Positions 7,851-62,520 of a stretch of DNA of 64,000 nt are shown one piece after another; the first letter of the stretch is position 1; each line of letters starts with the position of its first letter. Position numbers and translations under genes: made by a program. The notes beneath the pieces are model-generated. The model searched no databases and was not told the origin of the DNA. It saw only the letters and a program-made list of their open reading frames with translations. Source of the stretch: Branchiostoma floridae (Eukaryota > Chordata > Leptocardii > Amphioxiformes > Branchiostomatidae); assembly GCF_000003815.2 (NCBI RefSeq), contig NC_049987.1, forward strand, positions 17,711,959-17,775,958, given 5' to 3'.

Positions 7851-7983
7851 TTGATATCGGCCACGGTAGTGAATGATTACACCGGCGGCTGAGTGCTGCA
7901 CTGGCCCCGTAGAGAGCCTACTGAGTGAACTACGGTAGGCCCAGATCTGGGTAGGCCGTGCCACAACTAGACTGGATTCCAGG

Positions 7984-21500: not shown

Positions 21501-22122
21501 CTACTTTTTTGGCGTATTATAGATAATTTAATCCTAGCAATTGACCAAAATCGAATAAAGGGTTAATGATCCACTTCGCTCACTCAGTGACTTATGGACA
21601 GGCGTTCTGGCACCATTGACGCCGAGGAAAAAATAGATAGCCTTTAGCCATAAACAAGTCTCCATCGTCATTAATGCATGCTTATAACGTAAACCGATAG
21701 GAGTGAATGTCTGTAGTTAATCTACAGAGCTTGGCTACATGGCGCTTGTCTCTATTTTTTAGTACAATCCTTATAAAAGCATTTGATTTGCAGGCAATGA
21801 AGTCAGCATTCGATTCGCAAGAAATGGAGAAGGTAGAAAGTAAATTAGAAAAAAATGAAGACCACGGAGACGCTCCGGAAGGCAGTACCATCAGCATGTC
21901 TCAGACGACCGTCTCAGAGCCACCAGACCTTCCAGAAGGCAAGAACGAAGAGCCTAAGGAACCGGAGGAACTGGAAGGTAAGGAGACTCTACTGTACAAA
22001 TGAAAAGTTGTGACAATTGTTGTAGTACCACTGCAATAGGACCGTAATACTGTCGCAATAGTACAGCTATAATGCCACAATATATATTACATTATGAGAC
22101 AGAAGGGTGTGTGTGTGTGTGT

Positions 22123-39446: not shown

Positions 39447-42400
39447 ATGGCGGAGAAATGTGGTCAACACGAGGAGGACTCTGCATCCAAGTAAGGTCAA
39501 GTTTTATCATTTGGAGTGGTACTTTTAACCTTCATTAGCATCTAAGGAAGTGGGTTATCTAAAAGATGTAAAATTTGTTGAAAAAGATCAAGGAATTCTT
39601 TACGTAAAGTTACAAATGCAGTATTTGCAAGTAATAGTAAGCATGTGTGATTTCTTAAAACATTTTGGACGAATCTCTCAATTGTTTACCTGGATGTAGC
39701 GTTTACCTGGATTGTTAACCTTTATAAACGATTTCAGTTTATGTTTCCCAGAAAAATTGATTATCATGATGTCATGTTTTAATATTTTACTTCAGGTCTT
39801 TGCTGGGGACACGCTTTAAATGGTGTCCTACATCATTGCATAATCTTGCTGCCGCTGAAACTAAAGTATTACAATGTAAGTAGGTCATTGCAATCTACAT
39901 GTACGATCTTGCATGTCTTTTTTGGCGACGCCTCAATGACGGAGCCGGTTTTATTCAATATTGGGCCTTATCTTTTAATGCAAAAGAAATGTTCTATGTT
40001 TCGCTTCTTTTCCGAACTCAATCAGTTCCATGTTTATAATGTACTTCTTAGTGTGACATCCACATATGTAATAACGATTATGTACTGGTCAACTTCTATA
40101 ACTTTAGTAACTTTTCCTCACTAGATGTCAAATCAAGATTGGAGAGATTCTACGTTCCAATCCCTAACGGCGGAAGGATATGGACCCTAAAAGTGAACCC
40201 CAGAAAAACAGACGCCTTTCCCATTGTGATGGTTCACGGGTTCGCAGCCGCAGCGGGTTTCTTCTTCTTGAATTTTGATGCCCTCGCTGAGCACCGAACG
40301 GTCTACGCGTTCGACGTACTTGGCTTTGGGCAAAGTTCTCGGCACAAGTTTAGCACAAAGCCAGACGTTGTGGAAGAAGAATTCGTGGATTCCATAGAAG
40401 AGTGGAGGAAAGGTGTAGGACTGGAGAAGTTCATTCTGATGGGTACAAGTTTTGGCGGTTTTCTTGCGGCCTCCTACGCTATCAAACATCCCGGCAGAGT
40501 CAAGCACCTGATTCTGGCCGACCCCTGGGGGTTTCCAGAAAAGACAGAACAAGCTGCTAAAAAGTTTCGAGCTGAGGTATGGTATTGGGTTAAGACCTAT
40601 ATATGATTAGTCACTTAGTGAATTTGTAAGGGTGATTTGCAAGGTAGTTGACACGTTGTGGATTGTAGTTTCGTATCGTCCAAACTAGTCTTTGGTTGCA
40701 TGAAAATTTCTAAGTTGTACAAATGTCTCCTGTCATGTGATACTAGTAGCCAGCACTAGTCACGTGACAAATCTCCAAGACACTATCCAACATTTTGATC
40801 AAGAAAGAGGCAATGATAGTCACGGAAGCGTCCAAGTGATAATTTCTTTTGTAATAGCAATATATTATATGCATAAATCGTTGCAGCTGTCGAAATCGCT
40901 AATGAATCCCAACAATTCAAGTCTATCAAAAAATCTTCTGAATTTACCATCCAACATGGCGGCCAAGGCTTACATTATAGTCACGTGGATACAAACACAC
41001 AATCTGCTGCAGTTTGTTTGTTGTCCATGCAAATGAATATGGAGTCAAGTATTTCTCTTGTTGTGTTGCAGACGCCGTTCTGGATGAGGATTATTGCCCC
41101 AATGCTGCCACACATTAACCTCTTGGCGCCCTTACGACTCGCAGGGCCGTTCGGTGAGTGTATACAAGTTTATATAATATTGTACAAGTACGACGTTATA
41201 GTTAATAGCCATTCATAAATCCTTTAAAAGTATTGCATGTATACTAGTATATAGAAATGAAAGTCATTCATTAATATGTTACAATCAGTTTGGTGTATTG
41301 TTTTTTTTCTTACTGTTTTGTCAAAGGTCCTCAGCTTTTGCGGGCTGTGCGGCCGGATGTAAGAACCAAGTTTGCGGACGGGTTTCAGGACAACACTGTG
41401 ATTGACTACCTCTATCACTGCGTTGCACAACCACCAAGGTAGGGGGCGTTTTAACGCGCCTCTTTTTCCTTACGGTTAATTCAAACGAATCGTCGTGATA
41501 TTTGGCATGTGAGTAGGTGTCGCTATACAGTACGTTGGATTATGGTCCTCATGGATTATGGTCCTCCCGGTGGCTGTCTATGGTACTACAGTGAAACTTT
41601 CAGTTATAGTATCTCATTTTCATTTGTTCGTTTGAACCGCCAAGCGGTTAGAACTGCTGGGGTATGTTTGTTGTTGAAATTAAAAAAAAAGGATAATTTG
41701 AGAAGAAATTGATCGATTTTTATGTTTACCAAACGTTATATCATTTGAGTCTGTATGTGAATGCTCAAACTTGTTAACACGTATGATTATGTATGTATGT
41801 ATGTATTCTTTGACATATATATTTCAGCGCAGAGACGGCATTCGGGACCCTACAAAGTGAAGGTTGGGAGTGGGCTAAGAAACCCATGCTTCCTCGCATG
41901 ACCCGCTTGGACCCGAATGTACCAATCACATTCATCTATGGTGCAGACACATGGATGGACAGTAGAACAGGAAAACAGACAGCAATTCTACGGAAAGGCT
42001 CTTATGTTGACATAATTGTAAGTATCTTTTGTTATGATTTAAACACAAAAATGAACCAAGTTCATAATTCAGTGCTCCCATTATGATATAATGTATTTTA
42101 ATACAATTTTTCCTTGATTGCATATTAAGTTTGTAACTTTTTTTGTATTTGATAGTATATGCCTACGGCCAGGTTATTGCAGTTGACAGTTGGAGAAAAC
42201 AGTGCGAACAAAACGATGCGTTGCATTGTAGATGTCTCAAATGCATTTGCCCTTTTTGCTAAAATTATCAAGTCAACACACAATAAACAAGACTGTACTC
42301 CATCATGTATCCACTGCAACGAGAACTGTTTATTTTAGGATGATAAATGCCTTCTTTTGTCCACAGTTCATTCAGAATGCTGGCCACCATATGTACGCGG

Positions 42401-42538: not shown

Positions 42539-42960
42539 CGAGTGCATTCAAAGCAAAGGAACTAGTGATGCACATATATGTCAAAACTGAATGTATCACT
42601 GATTGTTTGAAAAAGAAAAAGCTAATTAACAGTACGATACCAGAAAGCCGGTCAAGCAATTACTGATAGATGATTTGATCGCTTGCAAATAGTCCAAAAG
42701 GTTTCATAAAAAACTCCTTATAATAGTCGATCTTCATAGGTTGTGGTGAAATCAAATCAAGTAGACACCGCGAATAACGAATGTTTGTTGTGTCAATGAT
42801 GTAATTTGTAACTGGCCGGTACTATACTCAGGAATATCCGTGGGAGCAGCGGCCAGGACTGGCAGAGAATCTGTTCGGCAGCCAAGACAACGGTTTTTCC
42901 CGCCGACCTTAGCTAAGCACTCCGGGGAAGTGTCATGAGTGAAGCAGGCAGACGGGTAGT

Positions 42961-43380
42961 TTGACTACCCCGCATTATACATACAACCAAAAAACATATC
43001 TAAGTAATGAAAATATGAGGGACAGGAATGCTGTCACAAGCCTAATTAGCTGCCATAAACTTCATATTGAAACAGGAAGACATACTCGCACCCCTCTGGA
43101 ACAAAGACTATGCAAATATTGTAATTTAGATAGATTAGAGGACGAACGTCATTTTGCAGTAGAGTGTAGATTGTATACTTCAGAGAGAAATTAACTGTAG
43201 AGGGTTTACAAAACCAATTTCCTAATTTCATACACCTATTAAAGTTCTGTAGAAAAATTCATATTCCGAATGCAACTGGACTAACCATCGATCTTAAAAC
43301 ATATTTGCTCTTTTATCTCCACTATAAGAGAAAAGCGGGAAGTTGAATTTATCCAGCAATAGTCTCATTCTGTATCTGTA
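42961..43380 (+). mobile_element. LINE reverse transcriptase C-terminal fragment (left part)
   Basis: A 77-codon frame contains HKLHIETGRHTRTP followed by the Cys-His cluster CKYC..EDERHF..EC, the C-terminal zinc-binding segment of CR1-like non-LTR reverse transcriptases. It ends at a stop at 43192-43194, followed by UTR-like sequence to 43380, where the 6.2-kb foldback element begins. The probable remainder of the LINE 3' end lies beyond that element at 49546-49640. Confidence 0.75.
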
Positions 43381-43799
43381 AAGGTCCCCTCTTACTGGAC
43401 GTGGGGCACGCTTGCGGCATTGCTGCATCCGAAAACGCAGATGTACCCCCACGGAACCTAGAGGTGCCCCCGCGAAACCTAGAGGTGCCGCAAGCAAACC
43501 TAGAAGTACCGGTTGCAAGCGCGACGTTTTTTGGAAAGTTTAAAAATAACGCAAGTGGCAAGATGAGAAGGGGCTGCACGAGCAACCTCCATGGAGGAGC
43601 TCCACAGAGCTGACCTCCATGGAGGTTGCTCGTGCAGACCACCAGCTCCACCGAGCGAGCTCTATGCGCTATGAATACAAACACTTGGTTCTCGTCACCT
43701 TCATGGAATTTTTAGTACTACATGGAGGAGCTTCTCTCGTAGAGGACAAACAACCGGACTGAACTAGCAGCTGTACGCAAAACATGCTACACGGGCTAT

Positions 43800-45165
43800 G
43801 AATGTAAACATTTGGATCACGTCACCCAAAACAAATTGGTCTTAGCGCTCTATACGGTAACAGAGGTCTGTTTGAGTAGCGCTCTACGGGTTATGAATGT
43901 AAACACTTGGTTCACGAAACCCAAAACAAATCGGTCTTAGGGCTCCATACAGAGATACTGTAAACAACAAACACACAGAGCCGATAGCTGATCGAGCAGC
44001 TCCACGGGCTATATGAGGGTAAACACTTGGTTCACGTCACCATCAACAAATCGGTGTTTAGGGCTCTGTACAGGGATACTGTAAAAGAAAACACACGGAG
44101 CCGATAGCTGATCAAGCAGCTCCACGGGCTATATGAATGTAAACACTTGGTTCACGTCACCATCAACAAATCGGTGTTTAGGGCTCTATACAGGGATACT
44201 GTAAAAAAAAAAAACACACTGAGTCGATAGCTGATCATGCAGCTCCACGGGCTATATGAATGTAAACACTTGGTTCACGTCACCATCAACAAATCGGTGT
44301 TTAGGGCTCTATAAAGGGATACTGTAAAACAAAACACACGGAGCCGATAGCTGATCAAGCAGCTCCACGGGCTATATGAATGTAAACACTTGGTTCACGT
44401 CACCATCAACAAATCGGTGTTTGGGGCTCTGTACAGGGATAATGTAAACAACAAACACACGGAGCCGATAGCTGATCAAGCAGCTCCATGGGCTATATGA
44501 ATGTAAACACTTGGTTCACGTCATCATCAACAAATCGGTGTTAGGGCTCTATACAGGAATACTGTAAAACAAAACACACGGAGCCGATAGCTGATCAAGC
44601 AGCTCCACGGGCTGTATGAATGTAAACACTTGGTTCACGTCACCATCAACAAATCGGTGTTAGGGCTCTATACAGGGATACTGTAAAACAAAACACGGAG
44701 CCGATAGCTGATCAAGCAGCTCCACGGGCTATATGAATGTAAACACTTGGTTCACGTCACCATCAACAAATCGGTGTTTAGGGCTCTATACAGGGATACT
44801 GTAAAACAAAACACACGGAGCCGATAGCTGATCTAGCAGCTCCATGGGCTATATGAATGTAAACACTTGGTTCACGTCACCATAAACAAATCGGTGTTTA
44901 GGGCTCTATACAGGGATACTGTAAAACAAAACACACGGAGCCGATAGCTGATCTAGCAGCTCCATGGGCTATATGAATGTAAACACTTGGTTCACGTCAC
45001 CATCAACAAATCGGTGTTTAGGGCTCTTTACAGGGATATTGTAAACAACAAACACACGGAGCCGATAGCTGACCGAGCAGTGCTCTACGGGCTATGAATG
45101 TAAACATTTGGTTCACGTCACCCTTTAACAAATCGGTGTTAAGGCTCTGCGGATAATCGCAAATG
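43800..45165 (+). repeat. ~120-bp tandem array, left arm, about 12 units
   Basis: Units spaced 117-122 bp contain GAGCCGATAGCTGATC, CAGCTCCACGGGCTATATGA, ATGTAAACACTTGGTTCACG and AACAAATCGGTGTTTAGGG. The inner units are nearly identical, while the first two and the last are diverged, as expected of arrays homogenised from the centre. Confidence 0.95.
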
Positions 45166-47734
45166 ACAAGCATTCACAGAACAACGAATGGATATCTTTT
45201 TTGCACGATAACATTTGAAACAAAAATGCTGATTTTGTAAGAACTTAAATCGCGTGTACTATTGAATGACCCAAGAAAGTGGGGTATTTTTATTCTTCAG
45301 GTGGATGTTGGGTCGCGGAATTAACAGTGAGTTCGGAAAAGTAGTAGGAATTTACCGGCTCGCTCTCTTCACGGGGACCCAACCTCTGCTTGGAGAATAG
45401 ATAGGAGTACTTGTTTGTTTGCTTTTATCAAGCTCCTTGGTTTGCCCAAGGAGGTTTAACCTCCTTGGTTTGCCATTGTAAAGAATGCGAAAACTTCGCA
45501 CCTCAGTGCTAATCGTTAAGAATGGCTGATTTTGGGTTTGATTCAGCCCTGTGACAAATTTTGGGGAAATCTGTTGGCCTTTTATGAAAAAAAAATGGTT
45601 TCATAAAACAAATATTTAGACCTGTTATGAGATCTCCAATACCAGGTGTGCCTGTTTTTAGAAGAAATTAAATGACTGCCAAGAGAGAGTAGTTGGTCCA
45701 CCCATCATTATCGGATACGGGCAATGAGGTAAAACTTCCTTGGTACGAGGTTTGCAACAGCTCTAAATATTTCTTTTATGCAACCACAAGTTGTTGTTTT
45801 TGCAAAGTGGGCAACAGACCCCCGTGCGCGCGCGCAACGCACACAAACACTAGTAATAATTGTTAATTTTTTGTATGGTTGGATACAAAGGTTAAAAGAA
45901 CAATCGAGATGGTAATACTTTTAAGAATCAATACAACCCGTTTATTGAATGAAGCAAGCGGTGCATTGTTCATATGTCGGCTCTCGCAAGGAAAGCCGAA
46001 AGTTCGCACCTCCGTGCTAATCCAAAATCGTCTCAAAGCGCGCCCTTACCACGCCAGAACACTGACGCCAGAAGCGGCTGGCTGACTGGCCTATGACGTA
46101 GTCTCCAAGCAGAGGTCCGTGGGGAAAATCGTGACCATTTCCTTTGATTCATATTTTTTTTGAAGGTCGAAAATTATGTCACACCTTTCTCCACCAACCA
46201 CTGCTTGCAAAGTTATAGACCTCTCTAGTCAGCCAGCTGTTTTAGGCGTGCACGTGGTAAAGACGATATCGTATTAGCACAGGGTGTAAACTTCCAGTTT
46301 TCTTTGCGATCAGAGCGACAAACAATTCACCGATTGCTTCATTCAATGAACGGGTTGTTTTAATTTGCCATGAAAGGAAAAAATCATTGTTACAGTAGTG
46401 TTTGTGTCTGTGAGTGCGGCGGGAAGGGGGTGGTTTGTGGAATATGATTTCTTGAAGGTGAAGCATTATACATGTACCATGTTTGTCTTAATAGGGGTGT
46501 ATTCAGGAAATATTTGCGGAATTCATACGAGCTCTAAGGATCGTATGGATTCCGTAAAACTCATATGAATTAAGTCAGATTCGTGTGTTTCTTTAATCTC
46601 CAGGCAGATCCTACAATGGCCGATTATTTAAAGGTTAATAAGTACCAAACTCAGACGGAGTGTAGTGAGTACAAAATGTGTCTTTTGCCTGAATTGTGAG
46701 GAGCTTACAAACTCGTGTTCAATATTAAAACCTTTGAGATTAATATTGAATCAATACTAGTAGTCAAAGATAGTTTGCGCAAACTGTACTTTGACATTAC
46801 TCTTCCCACGGAGCTTTTATCATTTTTGCTCTACCAGACTACATGACCCACTCTCCAAGCAAGCATGTACTGGTTGGTAGAGTCTTCAACATTGTCAACT
46901 TCTCATATGCCGGTAGGACCAGCGGGGAAAAGTGACTTTTGGACTGGTCACACTTTACTCCACCAACATCTGCTTGGGAAGTTATACGCCAGTCAGCCAG
47001 CTGCTTCCGGCGTCAGTGTCCTGGCGTGGTAAGGTCGCGCTCTGGGGCGATTTCGGATTAGCACGGAGGTGCGAACTTTTAGCTTTCCTGGCGAGAGCCA
47101 ACAAACCGCTTCATTCAATGAATGGGTTGTTTTGATTTCTTCTCAGACACCAAGAACTTTCTTTGAGATTAGGATTACGGAATTCATACGAGCTCTACTA
47201 ATCGTAAATATATCGTGTGCATTTCGCAAACCTCTTTTGAATTCAAATCCGTGTGTTGTTTGGTAATGAATCGTTTAAAATAACTATAAATTCGTACATA
47301 TATCATTAAACTCTTATGAAAGCCATTATATTCTTTATATATAAAAACAGGCACCCCTGGCTTTGGAGATCTCCTCATAACAGGTTTAAATTTAAATCTT
47401 TATGAAGCCATATGTGTTTGTTTTTTTCGTAGTGGACCAACAGATCTCTACAAACTTGTCACAGGGCTGAAGTAAACCAATAACAGCTATTAGCATGAAG
47501 GTGCAAAGTTTCCTCATTCTTTACAATGGCAAACAAACAAGTATCTATTCTCCTATAGCAGACGTTGGGTCCCCACGTGAAGGGAGCGAACCGATAAATT
47601 CCGACTACTTTTCCCAACTCACCATTCTGTGACCAAAAATCCGCTTGAAGAAAAAAATATTCACTTTCTTGGGTAATTCAATGGTACGTTAGGTAATGAG
47701 TATTGATTTGTCCGTATGATTTGTAACCTCCTTG

Positions 47735-48245
47735 TTTATATTCATAGTGCATAGTGTTTACATTCATATAGCCGGTGGAGCTGCTCGATAGGCTATCGGC
47801 TCCGTGTGTTTTGTTTTACAGTATCCCTGTATAGAGCCCTAAACACCGATTTTTTTATGGTGACGTGAACCAAGTGTTTACATTCATATAGCCCGTGGAG
47901 CTGCTTGATCAGCTATCGGCTCCGTGTGTTTGTTGTTTACAGTATCCCTGTATAGAGCCCTAAACACCGATTTGTTGATGGTGACGTGAACCAAGTTTTT
48001 ACATTCATATAGCCCGTGGAGCTGCTTGATCAGCTATCGGCTCCGTGTGTTTTGTTTTACAGTATCCCTGCATAGAGCCCTAAACACCGATTTGTTGATG
48101 GTGACGTGAACCAAGTGTTTACATTCATAGTGCGCAGAGCGCTGCTTGGTCAGCTACCGGCTCTGTGCTTGTTGTTTACAGTATCTCCGTATAGAGCCCC
48201 AATACCGATTTGTTTTGGTTAACGTGAACCAAATATTTACATTCA
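47735..48245 (-). repeat. ~120-bp tandem array, right arm, about 4 units, inverted
   Basis: Reverse-complement copies of the left-arm unit (CGTGAACCAAGTGTTTACAT, CGGCTCCGTGTGTTTTG). Only about four units are present against about twelve on the left, so the arms differ in copy number. Confidence 0.95.
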
Positions 48246-49545
48246 TTTTTTGAAGGTTCTAGTTCAGCCCGTCCCCGTTGGTTTTTTCTTCTACGAGAGA
48301 AGCTTCTCCATGGATTAAAAAAAAAAATCATGAAGGTGATCAGAACTAAGTGTTTGCATTCATGAGTGCGTAGAGCCCGTTTCGTGGAGCTGGAGGGCTG
48401 TACGAGCAACCTCCATGGAGGTGCTCTGTGGAGCTCCTCCATGGAGGTTGCTCGTGCAGCCCCTATTGGGCAAGATGCCCCAACAGTGCCCCAACGGTGC
48501 CCCAACAATGCACCCACAGTGCCGCAACCACGCCCCAAACCGTATCAAGGATATATTTTGCTTATTTTACACCAAGAATCAAAAGAAAACATCCTTTTAT
48601 CACCAAAAAGCTATTTTAGATGTAATTCTGATAATTTTACAGCGGTTTTCGATCCAGTTACAGCATTGCGAATTCCACAAAACTTACCTTGTATCCGTAT
48701 TCAGAGTTAACTTAAAAGTACATCTTTTGATTTATTTAATGGAAAGTAGGGCAGTATTTTATACTTGAAAACAAAAAAATAAGTAACTGGTTTATCGATT
48801 AACCTACGGATGTAGAGAAAAAGATTATCGTACAACGTTCAAAAAGAAATTATTTATGTGAGATGATAACGTTTGCTTTTGAGTTTGCGTTATAATGTTA
48901 CAAGCAGTGTAATCATTGCTGGTAGGCTGCCGCCGATAAAATACAAAATTGCAGTTATTCGGACCCATGGGCCATATTTTTCTCACTTTTTACAAATATG
49001 GTAGACTTAGACATCATCAATAGACTGGCAAGCCATCCGCCGACAATGAAAATACCCCGCGTCATACAAAAAATGTATGAAATATCAGACATTTTCATTT
49101 TAAAAATTTGCAAAATTGGTGAATAAACATCAAGGAGCTTGATGAATATATAAACATACATCATTACACATAACGTTACATGGTGCAAAACGTACACATG
49201 GAGTCAAATCTGGTATATGGTTCGTGTCTGTTCATTCGGGTCATTTCCTTTACAGTAAAAGTCTTTCAAGGTTATTTATAGCATACGCATCATATAATTC
49301 ATTATCATAAGGGAAATTTTTTCATTTTGATCTCATTTTTGGGCATTCTCGTCATTTTACAGTGATTTTTCATAAATTGATAACGCTGCAATTGTCAATA
49401 ACATGTTCATTTAGTCTAGAAACGCAAAAGTGCCGCACTTCAGTGTGAGTGCAAGACAAAATCGGCGAAATTAACACAACAGTGCCGCAGTGAACGAACG
49501 CAGCAATGCCACAAGCGTGCCCCACGTCCAGTGAGAGGGGACCTT

Positions 49546-49650
49546 TACCTGCATCTTTTCATCATGTCTTGTTGTGACTTGTACTTAGCCCGGTGTGGCA
49601 AAAATATGCAATAAAGGTCCTCATTGATTCATTATCTCACCATGTCTCTG
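49546..49650 (+). mobile_element. LINE 3' end (right part, past the foldback insertion)
   Basis: Contains GTACTTAGCCCGGTGTGGC, AATAAA at 49609-49614 and an imperfect TGATTCAT end. It looks like the end of the LINE whose reverse transcriptase fragment stops at 43380 on the other side of the foldback element. The assignment rests on position and appearance. Confidence 0.45.
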
Positions 49651-49772
49651 ATTAACGTAGCAAGGTGAACGTACACAGCACAGTGGGTCATACCTCGACC
49701 ATAGAAATAGATATCTTTTCATCACTTTATACAATGTAACACCCCTATTTCGGAAGACTCGAACTGGGCCGT

Positions 49773-49995
49773 GTTCGTGGGAAAGCCTGGCTAGCCTGCA
49801 GGCTACCCTTTTTAGGGCCTCAAGGGTGTGCATGGGGTTTGACCCCTAATGGAATTTTGTAAAGGTAATTCTGGTAGGAAAATCTGGGTGGCTGACATTC
49901 CAGCTCAGGTTGCGTACGGAAACCACCATGCATACCCTTGGGGTCCAAAAAGAGTAGCCTGGCAGGCTTGCCTGCGCCCGGCCTTTCCCGCGAAC
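49773..49995. mobile_element. Small MITE with GTTCG-GGGAAAG ends
   Basis: GTTCGTGGGAAAGCC at the left and GGCCTTTCCCGCGAAC at the right are inverted copies. TAGCCTGCAGGCTACCC and GAGTAGCCTGGCAGGC extend the arms to about 60 bp. Confidence 0.65.
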
Positions 49996-50106
49996 TGTGA
50001 CCTTACCGGGCCAGAGTGTTTTGTTCTGATTATGCACTATAGGTCAAAGGTTAATTTGTGACCTAGTTTTTCCCTCTAAAATAAATAAAGGGTCATTCTG
50101 AAGAAG

Positions 50107-53100
50107 ATGGCGGACGGTAGTGTCGGTCAGCACCAAGAAGAATCCAGGCGAGTTTGGTATTTTCGAATGGTGATGTCTAAGTATCCACGGAAGGGCTCAA
50201 TTTTAAGATAAACTATTTGCTGGGATAGACGAGGAAATTCTTACGTAGCTCAATTCAGCTCTGGCCTCGGTTCCGTTTCCGAAGGGAATTAATTAGGTCA
50301 CAACAAATGTCACCGTTTATGTAATGATATCGATACACTGGATCACTTTGTAAGGTCATAACAAGTGAGTTCTATGGATGGCATCCGCGCGGTAATATTT
50401 GTGGTCATTAATATTCGCCAAAAAAAATACATTCTTCTTTGAAGATAGTCAACATGACGAAAAAAATTACCAAATGAGCAAATTTGTTGTATCCATGATT
50501 GTGCTGTAGAAGTGATACTAGCAAGATAGCCAGGGCTACGTATTTAGAAATACAACTTAGTCGGATAGTTGTTTATGTGGCACCGATATGGATAGCGATG
50601 AGTGTAGTTACCAACTTTGTTAGCCAGTCTACCACGCTAGAGATACTTTTACTACACTAATATATGAATACAGGAATGAATGCCTAGTTGGCTGGGATAC
50701 GACGTTTTGTCCCTTTAATTCTTGTTACAACGTTTATGGTGTCTATTTTGAAAATGTAGCCATCTTTTTTTGGTGCCCATCTTGTTTTTTTTGGGCCTTT
50801 TCTCCCTTTTTTTGTAGTCTGAAGAGGAAGGCATCCATAAAGCTCACTTGCTGTGGCAAACGTTAGATCCGTGTTTTTTGTAGCGTTTCAGGTTTTGCGT
50901 GTCTGTGTATTAAGTTACTCATTGTATATCTTTGGTCGTGTGATTATTTTAGCAACTTCGTACTTTGGATATGGGGCGCTGACGGAACCTTTTCTACGAA
51001 GGCCCACAACGACATATGCCTATCCCGTCGTTATGAATGGCATCATGTACTGACCGATAAGACCGGGCTGAAGTTAGCAGCCCATTTAGCAGCCGATTTT
51101 AGCAGCCGATTTTAGCAGCCGATTTTGACCTAGAGGAAAGGTAGCATCCGATTCGACTACATATATTTTTATTTCTTTTTACGATTTAGCCCAATTGAAC
51201 ACATTTGTCAACGTGAGCGTTGACAAAAGTTATAAAATAGTATTTTTCCAACAATTTAAGTTTGTTATCGTTAAGTCGCAATTCTTAGTTTAGCAAATAA
51301 CAGCAAAATTAAAAAAAACCTCCAGCAGCGATATGCGATACCTACCGGAGTGAGTGTACTTACGTAAAATCGGCTGTCTATCTAAACGTGGCCCGTGAAC
51401 TTGTGAGGGCAATTTAGATAGCTTATACCCTAACGTATTCAATACAAGTATTAAATCTAACGGGCCGGATTTAATTAATGAACTAATTGAGTTGAAGCAG
51501 TTTCTACACAGAGCCAAGGCAGCGCAAAAATCGGCTGCTAAACTGCTTGTAGAGCAATCTGCTACTTATTTAAACGTGGCCCGTGAACTTGTAAGTGCTA
51601 TTTAGATAGCTTAAACCCTAACGTATTCAATACAAGTCTCAAATCTTACGGGCCGGATTTAATTAATGAACTAGAGGTGAACTAACTGATAGGATATATG
51701 CAAGCAGGGGGGGGGGCATAAAATCGGCTGCTAAACTGCTTGTAGAGCAATCTGCTGCTTATCTAAACGTTGCCCGTGAACTTGTAAGTGCAATTTAGAT
51801 AGCTTATACCCTAACGTATTCAATACAAGTATCGAAACCTACGGGCCGGATTTAATTAAGGAACTAATTGAGTTGAAGCAGTTTCTCGCTGAGCCAAGGG
51901 AGAGCAAAAATCTGCTAAACTGCTTGTAGAGCAATCTGCTACTTATCTAAACGTGGCCCGTGAACTTGTTAGTGCTATTTAGATAGCTTAAACACTAACG
52001 TATTCAATACAAGTATCAAATCTTACGGGCCGGATTTAATTAATGAACTAGAGGGTAACTAACTGATAGGATATACGCAAGAGGGGGGGGGGGGGGCTAA
52101 AATCGGCTGCTAAACTGCTTGTAGAGCAATCTGCTACTTATCGAAACGTTGCCCGTGAACTTGCAAGTGCAATTTAAATAGCTTATACCCTAACGTATTC
52201 AATACAAGTATCGAAACTTACGGGCCGGATTTAATTAATGAACTAGAGCGATCTAATTGATATGAAATCGGCAAACATAGGGGGCGCTAAAATCGGCTGC
52301 AAACGGCTTGTAGAGCAATCTGCTACTTATCTAAACGTGGCGCATGAACTTGTAAGTGCAATTTGGAAAGCCTATACCCTAACGTATTCAATACAAGTAT
52401 CAAATCTTACGGGCCAGATTTAAATAATGAATTAGAGCGATCTAATTGAGCAGAAATCGACAAGCATAGGGGGCGCTAAAATCGGCTGCAAATGGCTTGT
52501 AGAGCAATCTGCTACTTATCGAAACGTGGCCCGTGAACTTGTAAGTGCAATTTAAATAGCTTATACCCCAACGTATTCAATACAAGTATCAAATCTTACG
52601 GGCCAGATTTAATTAATGAACTAGAGGTGAACTAACTGATAGGATATACGCAAGGAAAGGGGGGGGGGGCATAAAATCGGCTGCTAAACTGATTGTACAG
52701 CAATCTGCTACTTATCGAAACGTTGCCCGTGGACTTGCAAGTGCAATTTAGATAGCGTATACACTAACGTATTCAATACAAGTATCAAATCTTACGGGCC
52801 GGATTTAATTAATGAACTAGAGGGGAATTAACTGATAGGAAATACGCAAGTCGGGGGGGGGGGGGGGCATAAATTCGGCTGCTAAACTGCTTGTATTGCA
52901 ATCTGCTGCTTATCTAAACGTGGCCCGTGAACTTGTAAGTGCAATTTAGATAGCTTCTACCCTAACGTATTTAATACAAGTATCGAAACGTATGGGCCGG
53001 ATTTAATTAAGGAACTAATTGAGTTGAAGCAGTTTCTACACTGAGCCAAGGGAGCGCAAAAATCGGCTGCTAAACTGCTTGTAGAGCAATCTGCTACTTA

Positions 53101-56100
53101 TCTAAACGTGTCCCGTGAACTTGTAAGTGCTATTTAGATAGCTTATACAATAACGTATTCAATACAAGTATCAAATCTTACGGGCCGGATTTAATTAATG
53201 AACTAGAGGGGAACTAACTGATAGGATATATGCAAGCAAGGGGGGGGGGCATAAAATCGGCTGCTAAACTGGTGTAGCAAGTCTGTTATTACGTTGGGCG
53301 GCCCAGGGGTCACGTGGTGAGAGCACGTGATCATGGGCGCGCCCTGACGTCAACTAGGCCACGCCCCGCTGCGCTCACGTAAGCTCCGCCTCCAATTTAT
53401 GTAATATAAGACGCGGTACGGCGCTAGTTAGGCTAGAAGCAGACTCAGGGACAAGGACAACCGCATCTTCCGCCACCGTAGTTACGTAACCGGTTAGTTA
53501 GTATCATCCACCCGCATCTGTCCAGGTATCTTATCTTGTATTATTTGTATTAAGTCAGTCTATATCATTACCTCCGTTCACTTGCTTAAACTGTATACAA
53601 TCGGTCGTAGTAATAAAGATCACATCAAACTGTACACTGAACCCTGGTCCTTGGCTATATTGGTGAGAGTACATAGCATAGACGCGTCACCTTGACGTAT
53701 AGGTAAATGCCCAAATCCTACCACTAAGACCAAATGTTTACATGATTCCCACTAGTGGATACAGTTTTGCTCTGTGATCAAAATACTACGACTCGGTTTT
53801 CGTAAACTTCGTACCTTGAGTTTATAGTATAAGTCGCGTTCCGTTTTGCGCTAGGGTGACGCGCAGTAAAACTTTCCTTTGTTCTTGTGTGTCACATCCC
53901 CCCAAAACACGTGTGTTGTTGCACCAAACTTCCATTGTACAATCGATACGTTTCTCCGCCAAAGTGTTGAAATCCATTCTACCGCTCTGTTAAAGTTCAC
54001 GTTGATACTTCGGTACTTTTTGCAACGCAATAAGTTAGAATGAAGAGTACGAAAATTGTCTAATCGTCTTGGCCACGTTTTGCAAAGCTCCCTGACGTCC
54101 TGGTGCGAATTTTATCCGTCAAATTCACGTTCTAACTCCAAAGTCCAAGTGCATCGTAAAACGCCGATATCTGATACAATTTCCTTCAAAATATTTGGCT
54201 CTTGCATCTAAAACTTCCGATCCTCCACGTGGCGGCCTATCGCATTACCTGATTTCAAATTCCCAGCCCAAATTGACCCAAAAGTTTCTATTCCATTCGG
54301 TAAAGTGTCCATTTGTTTCCCAACGTTAAATCTAGCCATTCGTTCTAAAATTCCTTCGGTATAAAGTCACTTTCGCTGCGTTTGCTTCCAAATATCTCCC
54401 AAAGGAAACTTGACTTTTTGTTCGTTGTCATTTTGCCATTTCGCGCCTCAACCGAGTTTTCTTTTGATCTGGGCTGCCGTCTCCCCGCTGGCGCCTATCA
54501 GTTTAACAAGTCTGAACTTAGCTTTTCATATTCCAACTTAGCAGTTTTGCGTAAATTATTTCAGCGGTTCGCAAGTTTTGCCTGGCGCCGGGCCGCTTTG
54601 TCATCGTTTTGACACCTTGTCTCTAGTCAACGCACCTATTGTCCCGACCAGGGTCTAATTTAACACCCTCTGTCGACAAATCCTTTTTATTGCAAATTTT
54701 TAGTGTCGTCTCTGTTTCTTGTTTGGCCGACGCCTGTGTCTTCTAAATTTCGCTACTGCCGACAAATCCTTTTTATTGCAAATTTTTAGTGTCGTCTCTG
54801 TTTCTTGTTTGGCCGACGCCTGTGTCTTCTAAATTTCGCTATTGCCGACAAATCCTTTTTATTGCAAATTTTTAGTGTCGTCTCTGTTTCTTGTTTGGCT
54901 GACTTCTGTCTTCTAAATTTCGCTACTGCTGACAAATCTTTTATATTGCAAATTTTTCGTGTCGTCTTTGGTTTTGCTCTTGTAGATTTCCCCTTGGCGC
55001 CCTGTGTGGCCTGCCGCCCCGTGTTTTGGTTCCCAAGCAACCATCTGACGAAGCGCCTACTGTTGTTACACCACACCGAGTATAAACCATGTCCACTGCT
55101 TCCGCACACGACAACACGATACCAGATGACCAAGTGGTCCAACTCAACTTTGGTCTCCATGGCAACGGACGCGGTAGAGGCAGGGGCCGCGGCCGTGCTC
55201 GGGGGACCCCGCGCGCTACCGGAGCAGCCGCGACCCCCCGGCCCGCTCCCCAGCTCACACCGGTTTCACACGATGGGCCCTCACTAACATCGACCCTGGC
55301 CCGCCACCGTAACCTCTTCCCCCCTTCACCAATCTCAGGGCAATTCGACGATGCTGTCCCCCGTACCACTCGCCCTAGGATCATCCCTAAATTAATGTGC
55401 AGTTTTAACGGTGTCTCCGACATAACTTGGGAGGAGTTTGAAATACAATTTACCGCAGACAGGTCCTATGGCGAGTGGGACGACCCCCTCAGCAAGACAG
55501 TACTAATCAGGCATCTTTCGGGTGGGGCCCTTCAAACCTATAACACGGCTGCACCGTCCATCAAAAACGGACCCTGTGACGTGGCGCTTGACTTCATGCG
55601 GGAGATGTACAGTCGGCCTAATGACCCGACCCATTTTGAGTCGGAACTTTTCACGTTGTCCCGCAACCCGGGTGAAACGCCACAGTCTCTAGAGGTACGA
55701 ATCCGCCGGCTAATCGCCAAAGTTCACCCCCAGGCCGACCAGCACACTAGGGATCTTTTGGGACTGCGGGAGTTCGTAGGCAAAATTCAAGACAAGCAAA
55801 TGGCATGGGAGGTAAAACGTTCTAAACCCCAAACCCTGCACGAAGCCAGCATGACCCTTCAGTTTTTCGAGGACCTTGCTAAATCACACACACCGTCACA
55901 GCACCCCTCCCCACCTCCTCCTAATGTCCGCCAGGTCAGCGATCCCTCTCCCGTCCCAGCGGAGACAGACATGCAGGCCATCCTGGCCTCCCACCGCCAG
56001 GAAATGCGAGAGATGCAGCGCTCCCACGAGCGTCAAGTAGCGTCTCTCCAAAGCCGCTTCGAGACGCTCCTCGGTTCCCAGCACCAACCCGCTCCCTACC

Positions 56101-59100
56101 ACCCACCACCCTCAAATCGCCCACCACCCCCCACCCCCCAGAACCCAACTCCGCGACGCACCCCGCAAAACTCTGGGTGCAACTACTGCCACGAACTTGG
56201 GCACTGGAAAAGGGAGTGCCCTCAGCTGCAGCGCTCCAACGCTGGCCGCCGGTCGGGAAACGATTTCGGGCTGGCTTAACTGGGGGTCAGCCAGCCACTA
56301 GCTCCCCACCCCCCTCGACCCCTCCCGACCCCTCTCCTGCTAACCCCATACCTTCCACCCACCCTTCCGTCGGAAGTTTTCACTTTACACCCCAGATATA
56401 TGGCCATTACGCTGACGTATTAATTGACTCGGGAGCAGATGTTTCGCTTATTTCTGTTGACGTGCTAAACAAACTTGGTAACAACGTGACTCCACCAGAA
56501 CTTGTTCCTTATGATGGACCTGCCCTATCGACTGTGGCTGGGGGCGCCTTGGACATAGTTGGTTACGTCACCCTCCCTCTCACGTGGCAACAACACCAGT
56601 TTCCCGCGAAATTCTTGGTCTGTCGTAACACGACCACGCCCATTTTGGTCGGCACTGACTTTCTACTGGCTTTCGACGCTGAAGTGTCAATGCGCAAGCG
56701 CACAATGACGCTCTGTGGGCCGACGGGCGTGGCATCCATTCCGGTCTCGCGCAAGGCAGCTGGGGCCGTTCGTCGTGTCGTGACCCGACACTCCTACTTA
56801 GTACCAGGGCGTTCGGTTCACCTTGTCCCAGGCAAAGTGGTAGGAAAGCGCGCAGATAACTCCCTTGGTCCCGGATACGTTAACCCGGCTCTTGCTTCAT
56901 TAGGTCGTTTTGGCTTAACAGGGGAGTTGATATCACACACTCCCGGCAAAAATACCACCAGAGTTTTTGTCGTTAATGAGAATATTGAACCTGTCCTAAT
57001 CCGTCCCGGTGCTGTAATTGGCCTGTATCACCCGTACACTGCTTGTAGAGCAATCTGCTGCTTATCTAAACGTGGCCCGTGAACTTGCAAGTGCTATTTA
57101 GATAGCTTATACCCTAACGTATTCAATACAAGTATCAAATCGTACGGGCCGGATTTAATTAATGAACTAGAGGGTAACTAACTGATAGGATATACGCAAG
57201 CGGGGGGGGGGGGCTAAAATCGGCTGCTTAACTGCTTGTAGAGCAATCTGCTACTTATCGAAACGTTGCCCGTGAACTTGCAAGTGCAATTTAAATAGCT
57301 TATACCCTAACGTATTCAATACAAGTATCGAAACTTACGGGCCGGATTTAATACAATCTTTATTGACAACGACAAAAGTACAGCGACTTTCGTAAGGTCT
57401 ACATGAATAACAACTACTTACAGTACAACTAAACACATATATATGGATATCTATAGGTATGGATACATCAACATAAAGGGTCTAGCATGTCATTTACACT
57501 ATTGGTTCTACGGTATAAACAATCGTGAATATATTTGCCTACTTGTACACAATGTGGATTTTCGCCTCCCAGAATGTACTTGAATTTATCTATCGAACAG
57601 AGAGTAGTAAAGTCTTTAGAGCGAGCGGAAAGTAATGTGAACAGCTCTGTGCGTTTGTCATCATATTGAGAACAATCCATAACAAAGTGACGTTCGTCTT
57701 CGATCTCATTTGGGCAGAATGGACAAAACCTGTGGTCACGGGGAATTTTAGAATATCTTCCGGCTTCTATATTTAGTTTGTGACTATAGCATAGGGGGCG
57801 CTAAAATCGGCTGCAAACGGCTTGTAGAGCAATCTGCTACTTATCTAAACGTGGCCCGTGAACTTGTTAGTGCTATTTAGATAGCTTATACCCTAACGTA
57901 TTTAATACAAGTATCAAATCTCACGGGCCGGATTTAATTAATGAACTAGAGGGAACTAACTGATAGGAAATACGCAAGCAAGAGGGGGGGGGGGGTAAAA
58001 TCGGCTGCTATACGGCTTGTAGAGCAATCTGCTACTTATCAAAACGTGGCCCGTGAACTTGCAAGTGCAATTTAGATAGCGTATACACTAACGTATTCAA
58101 TACAAGTAACAAATCGTATGTAAGAAAGANNNNNNNNNNNNNNNNNNNNNNNNNNNNNNNNNNNNNNNNNNNNNNNNNNNNNNNNNNNNNNNNNNNNNNN
58201 NNNNNNNNNNNNNNNNNNNNNNNNNNNNNAAGCAGTTTAGCAGGGGATTTTCCGGCCCCCCCCCCCTTTGCTTGGGTATATCCTATCAGTTAGTTCCCCT
58301 CTAGTTCATTAATCAAATCCGGCCCGTAAGATTTGATACTTGTATTGAATACGTTATTGTATAAGCTATTTAAATAGCACTTACAAGTTCTCGGGCCACG
58401 TTTAGATAAGTAGCAGATTGCTCTCCAAGCAGTTTAGCAGCCGATTTTTTCGCTCCCTTGGCTCAGTGTAGAAACAGCTTCAACTCAATTAGTTCATTAA
58501 TTAAATCCGGCCCGTAGGTTTCAATACTTGTTTTGAATACGTTGGGGGATAATCAATTTAAATTGCACTGCCAGGTTTTGGGGTGGGGTTGGATAAGCAA
58601 CAGATTTCTCTCCAAGCAGTTTAGCCCCGGATTTTATTCCCCCCCCCCCCCTTGCTTGCATATATCCTATCAGTTAGTTCCCCTCTAGTTCATTAATTAA
58701 ATCCGGCCCGTACGATTTGATACTTGTATTGAATACGTTATTGTATAAGCTATCTAAATTGCACTTACAAGTTCACGGGCCACGTTTAGATAAGTAGCAG
58801 ATTGCTCTACAAGCCATTTGCAGCCGATTTTAGCGCCCCCTATGCTTGCCGATTTCTTCTCAATTAGATCGCTCTAGTTCATTAATTAAATCCGGCCCGT
58901 AAGTGTCGATACTTGTATTGAATACGTTAGGGTATAAGCTATCTAAATTACACTTGCAAGTTCACGGGCAACGTTTAGATAAGCAGCAGATTGCTCTACA
59001 AGAAGTTTAGCAGCCGATTTTTGCGCTCCCTTGGCTGAGTGTAGAAACTGCTTCCACTCAATTAGTTCCTTAATTAAATCCGGCCCGTAAGTTTCGATAC

Positions 59101-61438
59101 TTGTATTGAATACGTAAGTGTTTAAGCTATCTAAATTGCACTTACAAGTTCACGGGCAACGTTTAGATAAGTATCAGATTGCTCTACAAGCAGTTTAGCA
59201 GCCTATTTTATCCCCCCCCCCTGCTTGCGTATATCATATCAGTTAATTCCCCTCTAGTTCATTAATTAAATCCGGCCCGTAAGATTTGATGCTTGTATTG
59301 AATAAGTTAGGGTATAAGCTATCTAAATTGTACTTGCAAGTTCACGGGCAACGTTTCGATAAGTAGCAGATTGCTCTACAAGCAGTTTAGCAGCCGATTT
59401 TACGACCCCCCCCCCTTTGCTTGCGTATATCCTATCAGTTAGTTCCCCTCTAGTTCATTAATCAAATCCGGCCCGTAAGATTTGATACTTGTATTGAATA
59501 CGTTATTGTATAAGCTATCTAAATAGCACTTACAAGTTCACGGGCCACGTTTAGATAAGTAGCAGATTGCTCTACAAGCAGTTTAGCAGCCGATTTTTGC
59601 GCTGCCTTGGCTCAGTGTAGAAACTGCTTCAACTCAATTAGTTCATTAATTAAATCCGGCCCGTAAGTTTCAATACTTGTATTGAATACGTTAAGGTATA
59701 ATCTATCTAAATTGCACTTACAAGTTCACGTGCAACGTTTAGATAAGCAGCAGATTGCTCTACAAGCAGTTTAGCAGCCTATTTTATGCCCCCCCCCCCC
59801 TGCTTGCATATATCCTATCAGTTAGTTCCCCTCTAGTTCATTAATTAAATCCGGCCCGTAAGATTTGATACTTGTATTGAATACGTTAGGGTTTAAGCTA
59901 TCTAAATAGCACTTACAAGTTCACGGGCCACGTTTAGATAAGTAGCAGATTGCTCTACAAGCAGTTTAGCAGCCGATTTTTGCGCTGCCTTGGCTCTGTG
60001 TAGAAACTGCTTCAACTCAATTAATTCATTAATTAAATCCGGCCCGTTAGATTTAATACTTGTATTGAATACGTTAGGGTATAAGCTATCTAAATTGCCC
60101 TCACAAGTTCACGGGCCACGTTTAGATAGACAGATAGACAGCCGATTTTACGTAAGTACACTCACTCCGGTAGGTATCGCTGCTGGAGTTTTTTTTTAAT
60201 TTTGCTGTTATTTGCTAAACTAAGAATTGCGACTTAACGATAACAAACTCAAATTGTTGGAAAAATACTATTTTATAACTTTTGTCAACGCTCACGTTGA
60301 CAAATGTGTTCAATTGGGCTAAATCGTAAAAAGAAATGAAAATATATGTAGTCGAATCGGATGCTACCTTTCCTCTAGGTCAAAATCGGCTGCTAAAATC
60401 GGCTGCTAAAATCGGCTGCTAAATGGGCTGCTAACTTCAGCCCGGTCCGATACGCCAGTCGCTACAACTCCCCCCCCCCTTATAGCCAGTTTTAGGAGTT
60501 TGTTTTCAACATTTCACTCCCTTAGGGAAAGACATAATCCTTTTGAGATTATCCTTTGTTCAAATGTCAACACAATAAAAGAGAATTCCCATAGATACAA
60601 CAAAGTTTGCATTGCAATCGGCGTTAATATTGTCAAGAAAAAAGGAGGAAGGGAAAAGGTATTTGAATCGTCTTCTGTTTCCCGATGGTGCCCAGATGGT
60701 GCCCGACATCTCCACAACGTCTTGCTGATGCTGAAACTCGAGTATTGACATGTAAGCTGTCGTATATTTCAAGTTTCTTTTTTTGTGACTCCTCAGGGAC
60801 GGGGCCCTTTCAATAGTATTGGACTGTCTTTTTTAAAAATGTTTCATGTGTTCTTATCGTACATTTTTATCAATTTCCAAGTACACGTCAGTTTGCCTAT
60901 TAGCTTAACACCCATTAATATATTACTAATACGAATACGTAACGGTAGATCTATTTGCTTTTCTCTTACTTCTATTTCCATACTAGATGTAAAATCAAGA
61001 ATAGAGAGATTCTACGTACCAATCCCTAACGGCGGAAGGATATGGACACTCAAAGTGAATCCAAGAAAACCAGAAACCCTCCCCATTGTGATGGTTCATG
61101 GGTTCGGCGGCGCAGCAGCGTTCTTTTTCTTGAACTTCGATGCCCTCGCTGAGCACCGAACAGTCTACGCGTTCGACCTACTTGGATTTGGGCGAAGTTC
61201 TCGGCCCAAGTTTAGCACAAATCCAGACGTTGTGGAAGAGGAATTCGTGGATTCCATCGAAGAGTGGAGGAAAGGTGTAGGGCTGGAGAAGTTCATTCTG
61301 TGGGGTGGAAGCTTCGGCGGTTTTCTGGCGGCCTCCTACGCTATTAAACATCCTGGCAGAGTCAAACATTTGATACTGGCCGGACCCTGGGGATTTCCAG
61401 AGATGACAGAACAAGCGATGAATGAAGTACACGCTCAG
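50107..61438 (+). CDS. ABHD4/ABHD5-like alpha/beta hydrolase (copy B, first three exons)
   Basis: Exons 50107-50147, 60696-60751 and 60987-61438, with phases identical to copy A; the third exon is exactly the same length (452 bp). Exon 1 (MADGSVGQHQEES) resembles copy A's first exon. Exon 2 keeps RWCPTS and LADAETRVL but is 24 bases shorter at its 5' side. Exon 3 carries VHGFGG, YAFDLLGFGRSSR, the nucleophile elbow GGSFGG and HLILAGPWGFPE, and is closer to vertebrate ABHD4/5 (GFGGA, FGRSSRP) than copy A. The exon 1 donor is GC (CCAG|GCGAGT), a minor but known class. Intron 1 is 10.5 kb and holds the 9.4-kb foldback element. Exons 4-7 were not found up to 64000; they may lie past the window or be lost. 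Confidence 0.8.
51340..53271 (+). repeat. ~190-bp tandem array, left arm
   Basis: About ten units spaced 185-196 bp, each with AAACGTGGCCCGTGAACTTG, AACGTATTCAATACAAGTAT, ACGGGCCGGATTTAATTAAT and AATCGGCTGCTAAACTGCTT. Unit spacers alternate among a G-run type (8-14 G), an AGTTGAAGCAGTTTCT type and an ATAGGGGGCGCT type, so the array is built from higher-order variants. Confidence 0.95.
53273..53636 (+). mobile_element. Retrotransposon 5' LTR, 364 bp
   Basis: Bounded by TGTAGC at the 5' end and TGTACA at the 3' end, giving the TGTA..TACA inverted ends expected of LTRs. It contains a TATAAG promoter box at 53405 and AATAAA at 53612-53617, about 20 bases before the end. A likely primer-binding site follows but I could not assign its tRNA. 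The second LTR is absent because the element is truncated. Confidence 0.65.
53637..55088 (+). other. Retrotransposon leader with 85-bp tandem repeats
   Basis: Untranslated leader of about 1.45 kb. From 54670 to 54960 an ~85-bp unit (CGACAAATCCTTTTTATTGC, GTGTCGTCTCTGTTTCTTG, TTCTAAATTTCGCTACTG) occurs three and a half times. The 76-codon frame at 54382 has no motif and is not called. Confidence 0.7.
55089..56279 (+). CDS. Retrotransposon Gag (Ty3/mdg4 type)
   Basis: 396 codons starting MSTASAHDN. There is an RG-rich stretch at residues 28-38 (possible nucleic-acid binding), then a capsid-like domain at about 100-265 with the Retrotrans_gag look (ITWEEFEIQF, LSGGAL, LFTLSRNPGETPQSLEVRI), a coiled segment at 296-330, a Pro-rich linker, and one zinc knuckle CNYCHELGHWKREC at 364-377 (CX2CX4HX4C). 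It stops at TAA 56277. Intact, with no internal stop, and GC-rich compared with the surrounding satellite. It binds element RNA and forms the particle core in this class. The partner protease lies in the -1 frame. Confidence 0.9.
   Translation: MSTASAHDNTIPDDQVVQLNFGLHGNGRGRGRGRGRARGTPRATGAAATPRPAPQLTPVSHDGPSLTSTLARHRNLFPPSPISGQFDDAVPRTTRPRIIPKLMCSFNGVSDITWEEFEIQFTADRSYGEWDDPLSKTVLIRHLSGGALQTYNTAAPSIKNGPCDVALDFMREMYSRPNDPTHFESELFTLSRNPGETPQSLEVRIRRLIAKVHPQADQHTRDLLGLREFVGKIQDKQMAWEVKRSKPQTLHEASMTLQFFEDLAKSHTPSQHPSPPPPNVRQVSDPSPVPAETDMQAILASHRQEMREMQRSHERQVASLQSRFETLLGSQHQPAPYHPPPSNRPPPPTPQNPTPRRTPQNSGCNYCHELGHWKRECPQLQRSNAGRRSGNDFGLA
56255..56296 (+). promoter_or_regulatory. -1 ribosomal frameshift signal between Gag and protease
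   Basis: Slippery heptamer GGGAAAC at 56255-56261, in the correct register (G GGA AAC against the Gag frame). After a 7-base spacer comes a 7-bp G/C-rich stem GGCTGGC (56269-56275) with GCCAGCC (56290-56296) around a 14-base loop. The loop contains GGGGG, which could pair with the C-run at 56306-56316 to make an H-type pseudoknot. It lies 16 bases before the Gag stop. Confidence 0.8.
56261..57037 (+). CDS. Retrotransposon aspartic protease, truncated Pol
   Basis: Read in the -1 frame from the slippery site. It has a Pro/Ser-rich linker, then a retropepsin domain with VLIDSGADVSLIS (catalytic Asp codon at 56426) and the hydrophobic ILVGTDFLLAFD segment typical of Ty3-type proteases. About 100 further residues follow. 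At 57037 the frame passes directly into ~190-bp satellite sequence, so reverse transcriptase, RNase H, integrase and the 3' LTR are missing. The domain itself is open and keeps its catalytic motif, but the element cannot be autonomous. Confidence 0.85.
57038..58129 (+). repeat. ~190-bp units resuming after the retroelement
   Basis: About four units in the same orientation as the left arm, interrupted by a LINE fragment at 57348-57790 and ending at the assembly gap. The unit broken by the retroelement resumes with ACTGCTTGTAGAGC. Confidence 0.9.
57348..57790 (-). mobile_element. LINE reverse transcriptase C-terminal fragment inside the array
   Basis: On the minus strand: HKLNIEAGRYSKIPRDHRF, then CPFC..EDERHFVMDC, the Cys-His segment of CR1-like LINEs also seen at 43000-43190. 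It runs to a stop at 57468 and a UTR with AATAAAG at 57359. It replaces part of one 190-bp unit. Confidence 0.8.
58130..58229. other. Assembly gap, 100 N
   Basis: Exactly 100 N at the switch from forward to inverted 190-bp units. The round length marks an unknown true size. Confidence 1.
58230..60140 (-). repeat. ~190-bp tandem array, right arm, inverted
   Basis: About ten reverse-complement units (CAAGTTCACGGGCCACGTTT, ATTAAATCCGGCCCGTAAG). The unit next to the gap, and one near 58560 (GTTGGGGGATAATCAATTTA), are degraded; the latter may contain assembly errors. Confidence 0.95.
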
Positions 61439-62520
61439 GTATGGTGTGGGCTAACTCTTAGAATGAAGGAAGAAATAGTTGATTACGTTATAAATTGCAG
61501 TTTTTTTTAATCAGAAAGACGGGTCTGTGGCTATATCAAATGTGTAAGGTGTACAATCATTTTTTTTTGTCGTGATAGTTTCCTCAGTCACGTGTCAAGA
61601 ACTCCAAGACGAGACCTCACCTTTTGGTTGAGATAGAGACAATGATTGGCACGAACGTTTTAGGAGGCAACATTTGTGGGGTGAAAGTTTGTATGAATGA
61701 CTGTTACATGATTTGCCTGAACATTTATCTGAATGTCATATTTCTTGTTTTCGCACTCTGTTCGAATTTCCATATCACATAACTGAACATTCAAACGACT
61801 TATGATAGCATACTAGTGTATACATCATAAGTCGTTTCTGCAATCAATAATTTCAAACTTACGAATTAAAATAAGAATCACCTGGCAACTTAAAATCTTA
61901 ACCACTGCCTGAAAAGCCTCATTTCCAGGATGGAAACTGACTTACACAGTACTGGAAATTAAACATGTCCTTCAAAATCCGGAGGTTTCATGCCTGCAAA
62001 CGAGACGTGTACAGTCCTTTACATGTCCTAGAATCTCGCGGAAACGAACCATTTCTGTGTGCAGGACGGCGTAAAGGGCTTGAAATACCCTTACAGATTG
62101 CCTTGAAACAACCTTACACAACAGGACATGAGCCGTGTGTTGCATTGTGTGTTGGCGGAATATGCATACATTAGCGGCCAATTACCACCTAATTATCTTT
62201 CCCCGGTCTGCCTCACCCAGTGCATCCCTTTTGTCATGGAAAGTGGCGTCGAGAGATCTGACGCCCCCCCCCCCCTTCTGGATTTTGCCCCCCTCCCCAT
62301 TTATTCGGCAGTTTCTTACTCGCATTTCTTATTCTGTAATAGCACCATATATATATTCATATTGAAAGAAGACAATTTTTATTAGTGTTTGTTCGTGTGT
62401 ATGATAGGTTGAAGTCGCGAGTGCCTTTTGTATGTCATAGAATGCCGGCTGGTCTTTTGTTGTCTTCTAGTCTTCGTAGGCTACTAGTATGCACTTCTTG
62501 ACGGCATGCAGGGTAGTACA
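61439..62520. other. Spacer downstream of hydrolase copy B exon 3
   Basis: Searched by eye for exons matching copy A exons 4-7 (QPP, GWEWAKKP, AGHHMY segments) and found none. It contains poly-C at 62266 and short frames without motifs. Confidence 0.5.

Follow-up and report, generated by a model that had tools for sequence, protein, structure and literature searches.

Three sequence-unrelated foldback elements in a 64-kb stretch of the Branchiostoma floridae genome

Is a layout shared by three large inverted-repeat elements the trace of a process that builds giant hairpins in a genome, or does it belong to elements that were inserted ready-made? The question is raised by a stretch of 64,000 nucleotides from the amphioxus Branchiostoma floridae (contig NC_049987.1 of assembly GCF_000003815.2, positions 17,711,959 to 17,775,958), hereafter the window. 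A first-pass annotation, made from the letters alone, had described three elements of one design there, terminal inverted repeats (TIRs) followed by a tandem array and a mixed core, and had proposed a general process that grows subterminal satellites and fuses ends. According to our analysis, each of the three very likely represents a separate, non-autonomous foldback DNA transposon; it would have moved by cut and paste with a transposase provided in trans, and exchange may have taken place between its arms. They most likely belong to three families, and they are fresh examples of an already known element class. The sea urchin foldback TU and the Drosophila foldback FB carry tandem units in the outer TIR domain.

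The window has an animal-like character, with open reading frames (ORFs) that match a rhodopsin-type seven-transmembrane receptor and, twice, an alpha/beta-hydrolase fold; its N content is 200, in two gaps. Comparison of the window with itself revealed three large inverted-repeat elements (elements 1, 2, and 3), whose arms cannot be ascribed to chance, as the top inverted match reaches 3038 bits and none of 20 dinucleotide shuffles exceeds 39.2. Tandem Repeats Finder, with scores of at least 100, places an array within both arms of each element, with units of 21 bp in element 1, 120 bp in element 2, and ~189 bp (or a dimer of ~385 bp) in element 3, and with 4.1 to 12.5 copies per array. No BLAST match at E ≤ 1e-5 connects any two of the elements. 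The inverted arms, their arrays, and the lack of common sequence thus stand as annotated, whereas the 6.2 and 9.4 kb given as the measure of the mirror arms are total spans: the arms are 0.6 kb long in element 1, 0.7–1.6 kb in element 2, and 2.2 kb in element 3.

The foldbacks contained in these elements, numbered accordingly, all carry long inverted arms with tandem repeats within them. The target-site duplication (TSD) expected of a foldback is good in two of the three (GTGAAT for foldback 1, GGCAAGATG for foldback 2) and weak in foldback 3. Each junction was scored by comparing its direct-repeat match with those of 2000 random position pairs, at end positions that had already been looked at beforehand.

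Elements 1 and 2

Element 1 consists of the following parts.
6058–6066, plus strand: left copy of the host TSD GCTCAAAAC, a perfect 9 bp; right copy at 7987–7995
6067–7986: host miniature inverted-repeat transposable element (MITE) with tip TAACCTGGAATCCAGTCT, split by the foldback; own sequence 6067–6240 and 7869–7986
6235–6240, plus strand: left copy of the foldback 1 TSD GTGAAT, 6 bp; right copy at 7869–7874
6241–7868: foldback 1; arms 6241–6827 and 7282–7868, 21-bp arrays 6266–6499 and 7610–7843, core 6828–7281
11421–11708: relative of the host MITE without a foldback, folding as a single long hairpin

Element 1 is two elements, an older host MITE of ~286 bp and a foldback of 1.63 kb inserted into it later. 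The foldback arms are 587 nt long and identical at 585 of 587 positions (99.7%). Outside them, the outer 174 bp on the left and 118 bp on the right are mirror copies over the 19-bp tip alone, the tips being identical, and both flanks match one intact element at 11421–11708, whose predicted single-strand DNA fold has an energy of −113 kcal/mol (z −18.5, attained by 0 of 200 shuffles). When the flanks are joined, leaving out 6241–7868 and one GTGAAT, 222 of 255 aligned bases (87.1%; 319 columns with gaps) are identical to this relative. The alignment is gap-free at the join, where the relative has the single site GTGAAC. The junction matches of GCTCAAAAC and GTGAAT are attained by 1 and 13 of the 2000 random pairs, respectively. 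Because the empty relative matches the joined flanks and both junctions carry repeats, the MITE is the older element and foldback 1 landed inside it. A single element at 6067–7986 with a unique TIR preceding the 21-bp array is therefore rejected: the arms and arrays of the annotated design are present, but its outermost "terminal repeats" are those of the host.

Element 2 comprises the following parts.
43378–49548: probable outer TIR element; 49-bp ends 43378–43426 and 49500–49548, at 96% by local search
43557–43565, plus strand: left copy of the 9-bp direct repeat GGCAAGATG outside foldback 2; right copy at 48469–48477
43566–48468: foldback 2; inverted repeat from 43569/48464, core present
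43881–45148 and 47753–48246: 120-bp arrays of foldback 2, with more diverged units outside both
45256–45660/47342–47687: decayed inner inverted repeats of foldback 2, at 67%

Foldback 2 has arms at 43569–44270/48464–47753 that align over 736 columns at 82%. Its junction match, GGCAAGATG, is attained by 1 of the 2000 random pairs with a slack of 5 bases per side; the few bases that separate this repeat from the arm are different on the two sides. Between the foldback and the outer 49-bp repeats lies a non-mirrored flank of ~140 bp on the left and ~1.0 kb on the right (~1.2 kb in total). These observations suggest that element 2 is probably nested as well, with foldback 2 inside an outer inverted-repeat element, and that the outermost repeats, taken by the first-pass annotation for the ends of element 2, probably belong to another element, given the 9-bp direct repeat outside the inner inverted repeat. 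The nesting is graded as probable because the outer pair has no convincing TSD (its direct-repeat match is attained by 310 of 2000 random pairs) and the window shows no empty relative. For annotation, the lesson is that a nested pair can hide in what reads as "one giant palindrome".

The arms of foldback 2 are also inexact mirrors. Thirteen unit anchors are found on the left versus five on the right (10.6 and 4.1 copies by Tandem Repeats Finder). Across the arms, the inner units (left 4–12 versus right 3–4) are 0.95–0.99 alike and the outermost mirror pair 0.86. A candidate link between flanking domain and unit, over 30 of 34 bases, was rejected, the matching stretch being the foldback's own diverged first unit. 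To the left of element 2, at 42900–43250, an 83-aa open stretch gave no Pfam match.

Element 3: arms, tip motif, and core

Element 3 reads as a single element, with the order flanking domain, array, core, array, flanking domain.
51061–60447: foldback 3; flanking domains 51061–51378 and 60129–60447, ~190-bp arrays 51379–53283 and 58230–60128, mixed core
51086–51126, plus strand: tip cluster of three TTAGCAGCCGATTTT copies in 13-bp steps; mirror cluster at 60382–60422
53284–57036, plus strand: fragment resembling a long terminal repeat (LTR) retroelement, in the core, with a gag-like ORF carrying a zinc knuckle and an overlapping protease-like ORF; edges set by eye
57037–57352, plus strand: displaced array units in left-arm orientation; also at 57790–58129, two unit anchors per stretch
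57353–57789, minus strand: fragment containing an open stretch of 110 aa, which lacks Pfam support
58130–58229: 100-N assembly gap, close to the middle of foldback 3

The arms of foldback 3 (51061–53271/60447–58233) align over 2241 columns at 90.5%, and arm-to-arm identity declines with distance from the tip. Indeed, the flanking domains are identical at 308 of 311 aligned bases, and the first four units from the tip find their best match in the mirror unit (0.99, 0.98, 0.95, and 0.96; the third ties with another unit at two decimals). Units further in score 0.85–0.90 in register and have their best partner elsewhere. The in-register mean of 0.918, versus 0.884 off register, is attained by 97 of 20,000 permutations.

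The tip and the array of foldback 3 share a motif. With at most one mismatch, all 26 matches of TTAGCAGCCGATTTT in the window lie in foldback 3, 23 of them in the arms and three in the core: three at each tip, nine in the left array, eight in the right array, and three in the core units. In the array units the motif has the opposite orientation to that at the tip of the same arm. The flanking domain itself matches the array unit on the opposite strand at 33 of 42 columns, a match attained by none of 500 shuffles. About half of the units at 51707–53249 and 58256–59800 also carry a run of 10–15 G (C on the plus strand in the right arm); there are five such runs per arm, of variable length.

In a further correction of the annotation, retroelement-like pieces and the N gap lie at the centre of element 3. 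The 53284–57036 fragment yields Pfam matches to zf-CCHC (E 0.0013) and to the retropepsin-like RVP_2 (E 0.001), neither of which reaches its curated cut-off, and no second LTR was seen for the fragment. A tandem repeat of 86 bp in 3.5 copies (54670–54967) lies directly upstream of the gag-like ORF. The 110-aa stretch at 57353–57789 resembles the end of a non-LTR retrotransposon; by eye, we take the 83-aa stretch left of element 2 to resemble it. A coding role for the cores of the elements was rejected, since the sole sensible matches are the gag- and protease-like ones; other core ORF matches are weak, scattered among unrelated families (best DUF4184, E 0.0048), and were disregarded. The order of the pieces in the core of foldback 3 is incompatible with any single insertion, and its centre may therefore be misassembled.

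Origin of the shared layout

Several results weigh against foldback transposition as the common explanation. The junction repeat of foldback 3 is weak: a perfect 6 bp, CCGATA, attained by 33 of 2000 random pairs, or 7 of 8 bases when read by eye, leaving its size uncertain at 6–8 bp. The flanking domain of foldback 1 matches its array unit no better than shuffles do (63 of 500, better strand), and the same holds for the sequence upstream of the first unit of foldback 2 (225 of 500), whose in-register mean is not unusual either (attained by 1711 of 20,000 permutations). Finally, the Pfam scan of four stretches, covering 37 ORFs with a minimum length of 60 aa, shows no transposase domain, be it that of Mutator-like elements (MULEs) or the THAP domain of the P superfamily; non-autonomous copies would lack both. 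With respect to Mutator-type TSDs of 8–10 bp, foldback 2 has 9 bp and foldback 3 an uncertain 6–8 bp; foldback 1 was not filed under Mutator, as its TSD is 6 bp.

Other explanations were weighed. It is unlikely that unrelated foldbacks came under a shared selection for arm repeats and prefer inverted-repeat hosts, with hairpins accumulating inside hairpins. Nesting, which is shown for one of the three elements and probable for a second, would fit this reading; three elements are too few to establish it.

An assembly artefact, in which haplotypes or repeats were joined head to head into false palindromes, concerns chiefly element 3, where the 100-N gap near the centre, the near-identical flanking domains, and the array units recurring in the core beside retroelement-like pieces, in an order that a single insertion leaves unexplained, would all fit. 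However, the whole arms of element 3 differ by ~10% and its inner units are out of register, unlike a duplicated haplotype, and the sequence outside its two tips fails to align as mirror copies. Elements 1 and 2, for their part, are free of N gaps and have good junction repeats. We consider this explanation quite unlikely.

The process proposed initially, in which satellites grow near ends that are then fused into giant hairpins independently of transposition, draws on the layout common to three sequence-unrelated elements within 64 kb. It appears very unlikely, because host 1 has an empty relative and direct repeats flank foldbacks 1 and 2, both of which indicate the insertion of ready-made units. 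End fusion is unneeded, because element 1 is such an inserted unit and element 2 probably is. The junction repeat of element 3 is weak. The change in unit number is the part of the proposal that holds, as seen in the arms of element 2. In addition, about eight further local inverted-repeat loci hold none of the listed arrays, a weak point given that the list of loci omits entries starting in four simple-repeat stretches and that the list of arrays stops at a score of 100. The capture of independent satellites by transposon ends is highly improbable: foldbacks 1 and 2 show no link between unit and flanking domain, and the units of the Drosophila virilis foldback Tetris, as described, also make free, satellite-like arrays of kb size (PMC4079207), but each array within the window is confined to its own element, with opposite orientations in the two arms, and the unit of foldback 3 bears the tip motif.

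As independent transposons, the foldbacks would each have moved by cut and paste, with a transposase from elsewhere in the genome acting in trans on the foldback tip. Foldback 1 landed in a small MITE and foldback 2 probably in another inverted-repeat element. After the long arms had formed, slippage or unequal exchange would have added and removed units within an arm, and repair of breaks, or conversion, from one arm to the other may have kept the tip and the outermost units alike. The array data fit such gain and loss within arms combined with a putative exchange or repair between them. The array of foldback 3 probably adds binding sites for the transposase, as in Galileo of Drosophila, because its units carry the tip motif. 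Three sequence-unrelated foldbacks within 64 kb, one of them inserted into a host whose uninterrupted relative lies elsewhere in the window, provide material for the questions of how arrays change and how arms stay alike.

Other repeats were observed in the window. At 27800–28365, a further inverted-repeat element has 129-bp ends at 96% around a separate self-palindrome (28029–28232), possibly another nested pair. A 332-bp direct repeat at 91% occupies 12090–12421 and 12727–13058, with shorter related pieces near 21037–21115 and 21445–21509. Two alpha/beta-hydrolase-coding stretches on the same strand (40113–40593 and 60975–61454), 86.5% identical, bracket elements 2 and 3; they are probably a tandem gene duplication, with these elements between or within the copies.

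Comparison with known foldback systems

A search of the open-licence literature returned nothing on amphioxus foldback inverted-repeat elements, and we make no claim that the families are unpublished. The layout itself is not an under-described class, as the annotation had supposed, since tandem repeats within long TIRs appear in the published accounts of several systems (PMC4079207, PMC3688188, PMC3573991, PMC3169594, PMC5225508).

Among the closest descriptions by layout is that of Tetris, whose paper also lists foldbacks from both sea urchin and Drosophila (PMC4079207). Tetris and the present elements have in common long TIRs, a flanking domain, a domain of tandem units, an inner domain, and a variable core, and are non-autonomous; the Tetris core is described as being without conserved ORFs (PMC4079207). 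The units of its outer domain measure ~220 bp, versus 21, 120, and ~190 bp here, and its TSDs are given as 8–10 bp, versus 6, 9, and an uncertain 6–8 bp (PMC4079207). Its flanking domain is reported to share 37 bp with the 220-bp unit, an overlap of the kind seen here in foldback 3 only (PMC4079207).

Galileo, of the P superfamily, likewise has internally repetitive long TIRs with unequal unit numbers in the arms (PMC3688188, PMC3573991). Its tandem repeats contain sites bound by the THAP domain of its transposase (PMC3688188), unit numbers are unequal between the TIRs of one copy, and TIR extension through replacement of one TIR by a copy of its partner has been proposed (PMC3573991). The F copies of D. 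mojavensis are reported to have 2–3 units of ~210 bp, versus the 4.1 to 12.5 copies per array found here.

Tm1, a Mutator/Foldback element of root-knot nematodes, shares with foldback 2 a 9-bp TSD and short non-inverted bases before the TIR, and with the elements described here a variable number of tandem units and the nesting of one inverted-repeat element within another; it differs by its units of ~14 bp and by a transposase encoded in some copies (PMC3169594). In the Muta MULEs of Aedes aegypti, subterminal tandem repeats are reported for 10 of 12 long-TIR families, which, as here, combine them with long TIRs and with non-autonomous derivatives of heterogeneous core, whereas their units are 9–15 bp and their TSDs 8–9 bp (PMC5225508). 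Changes in repeat number within inverted repeats are, as far as these accounts go, published for several foldback-type systems, and the supported part of the general process is thus already on record for elements of this kind.

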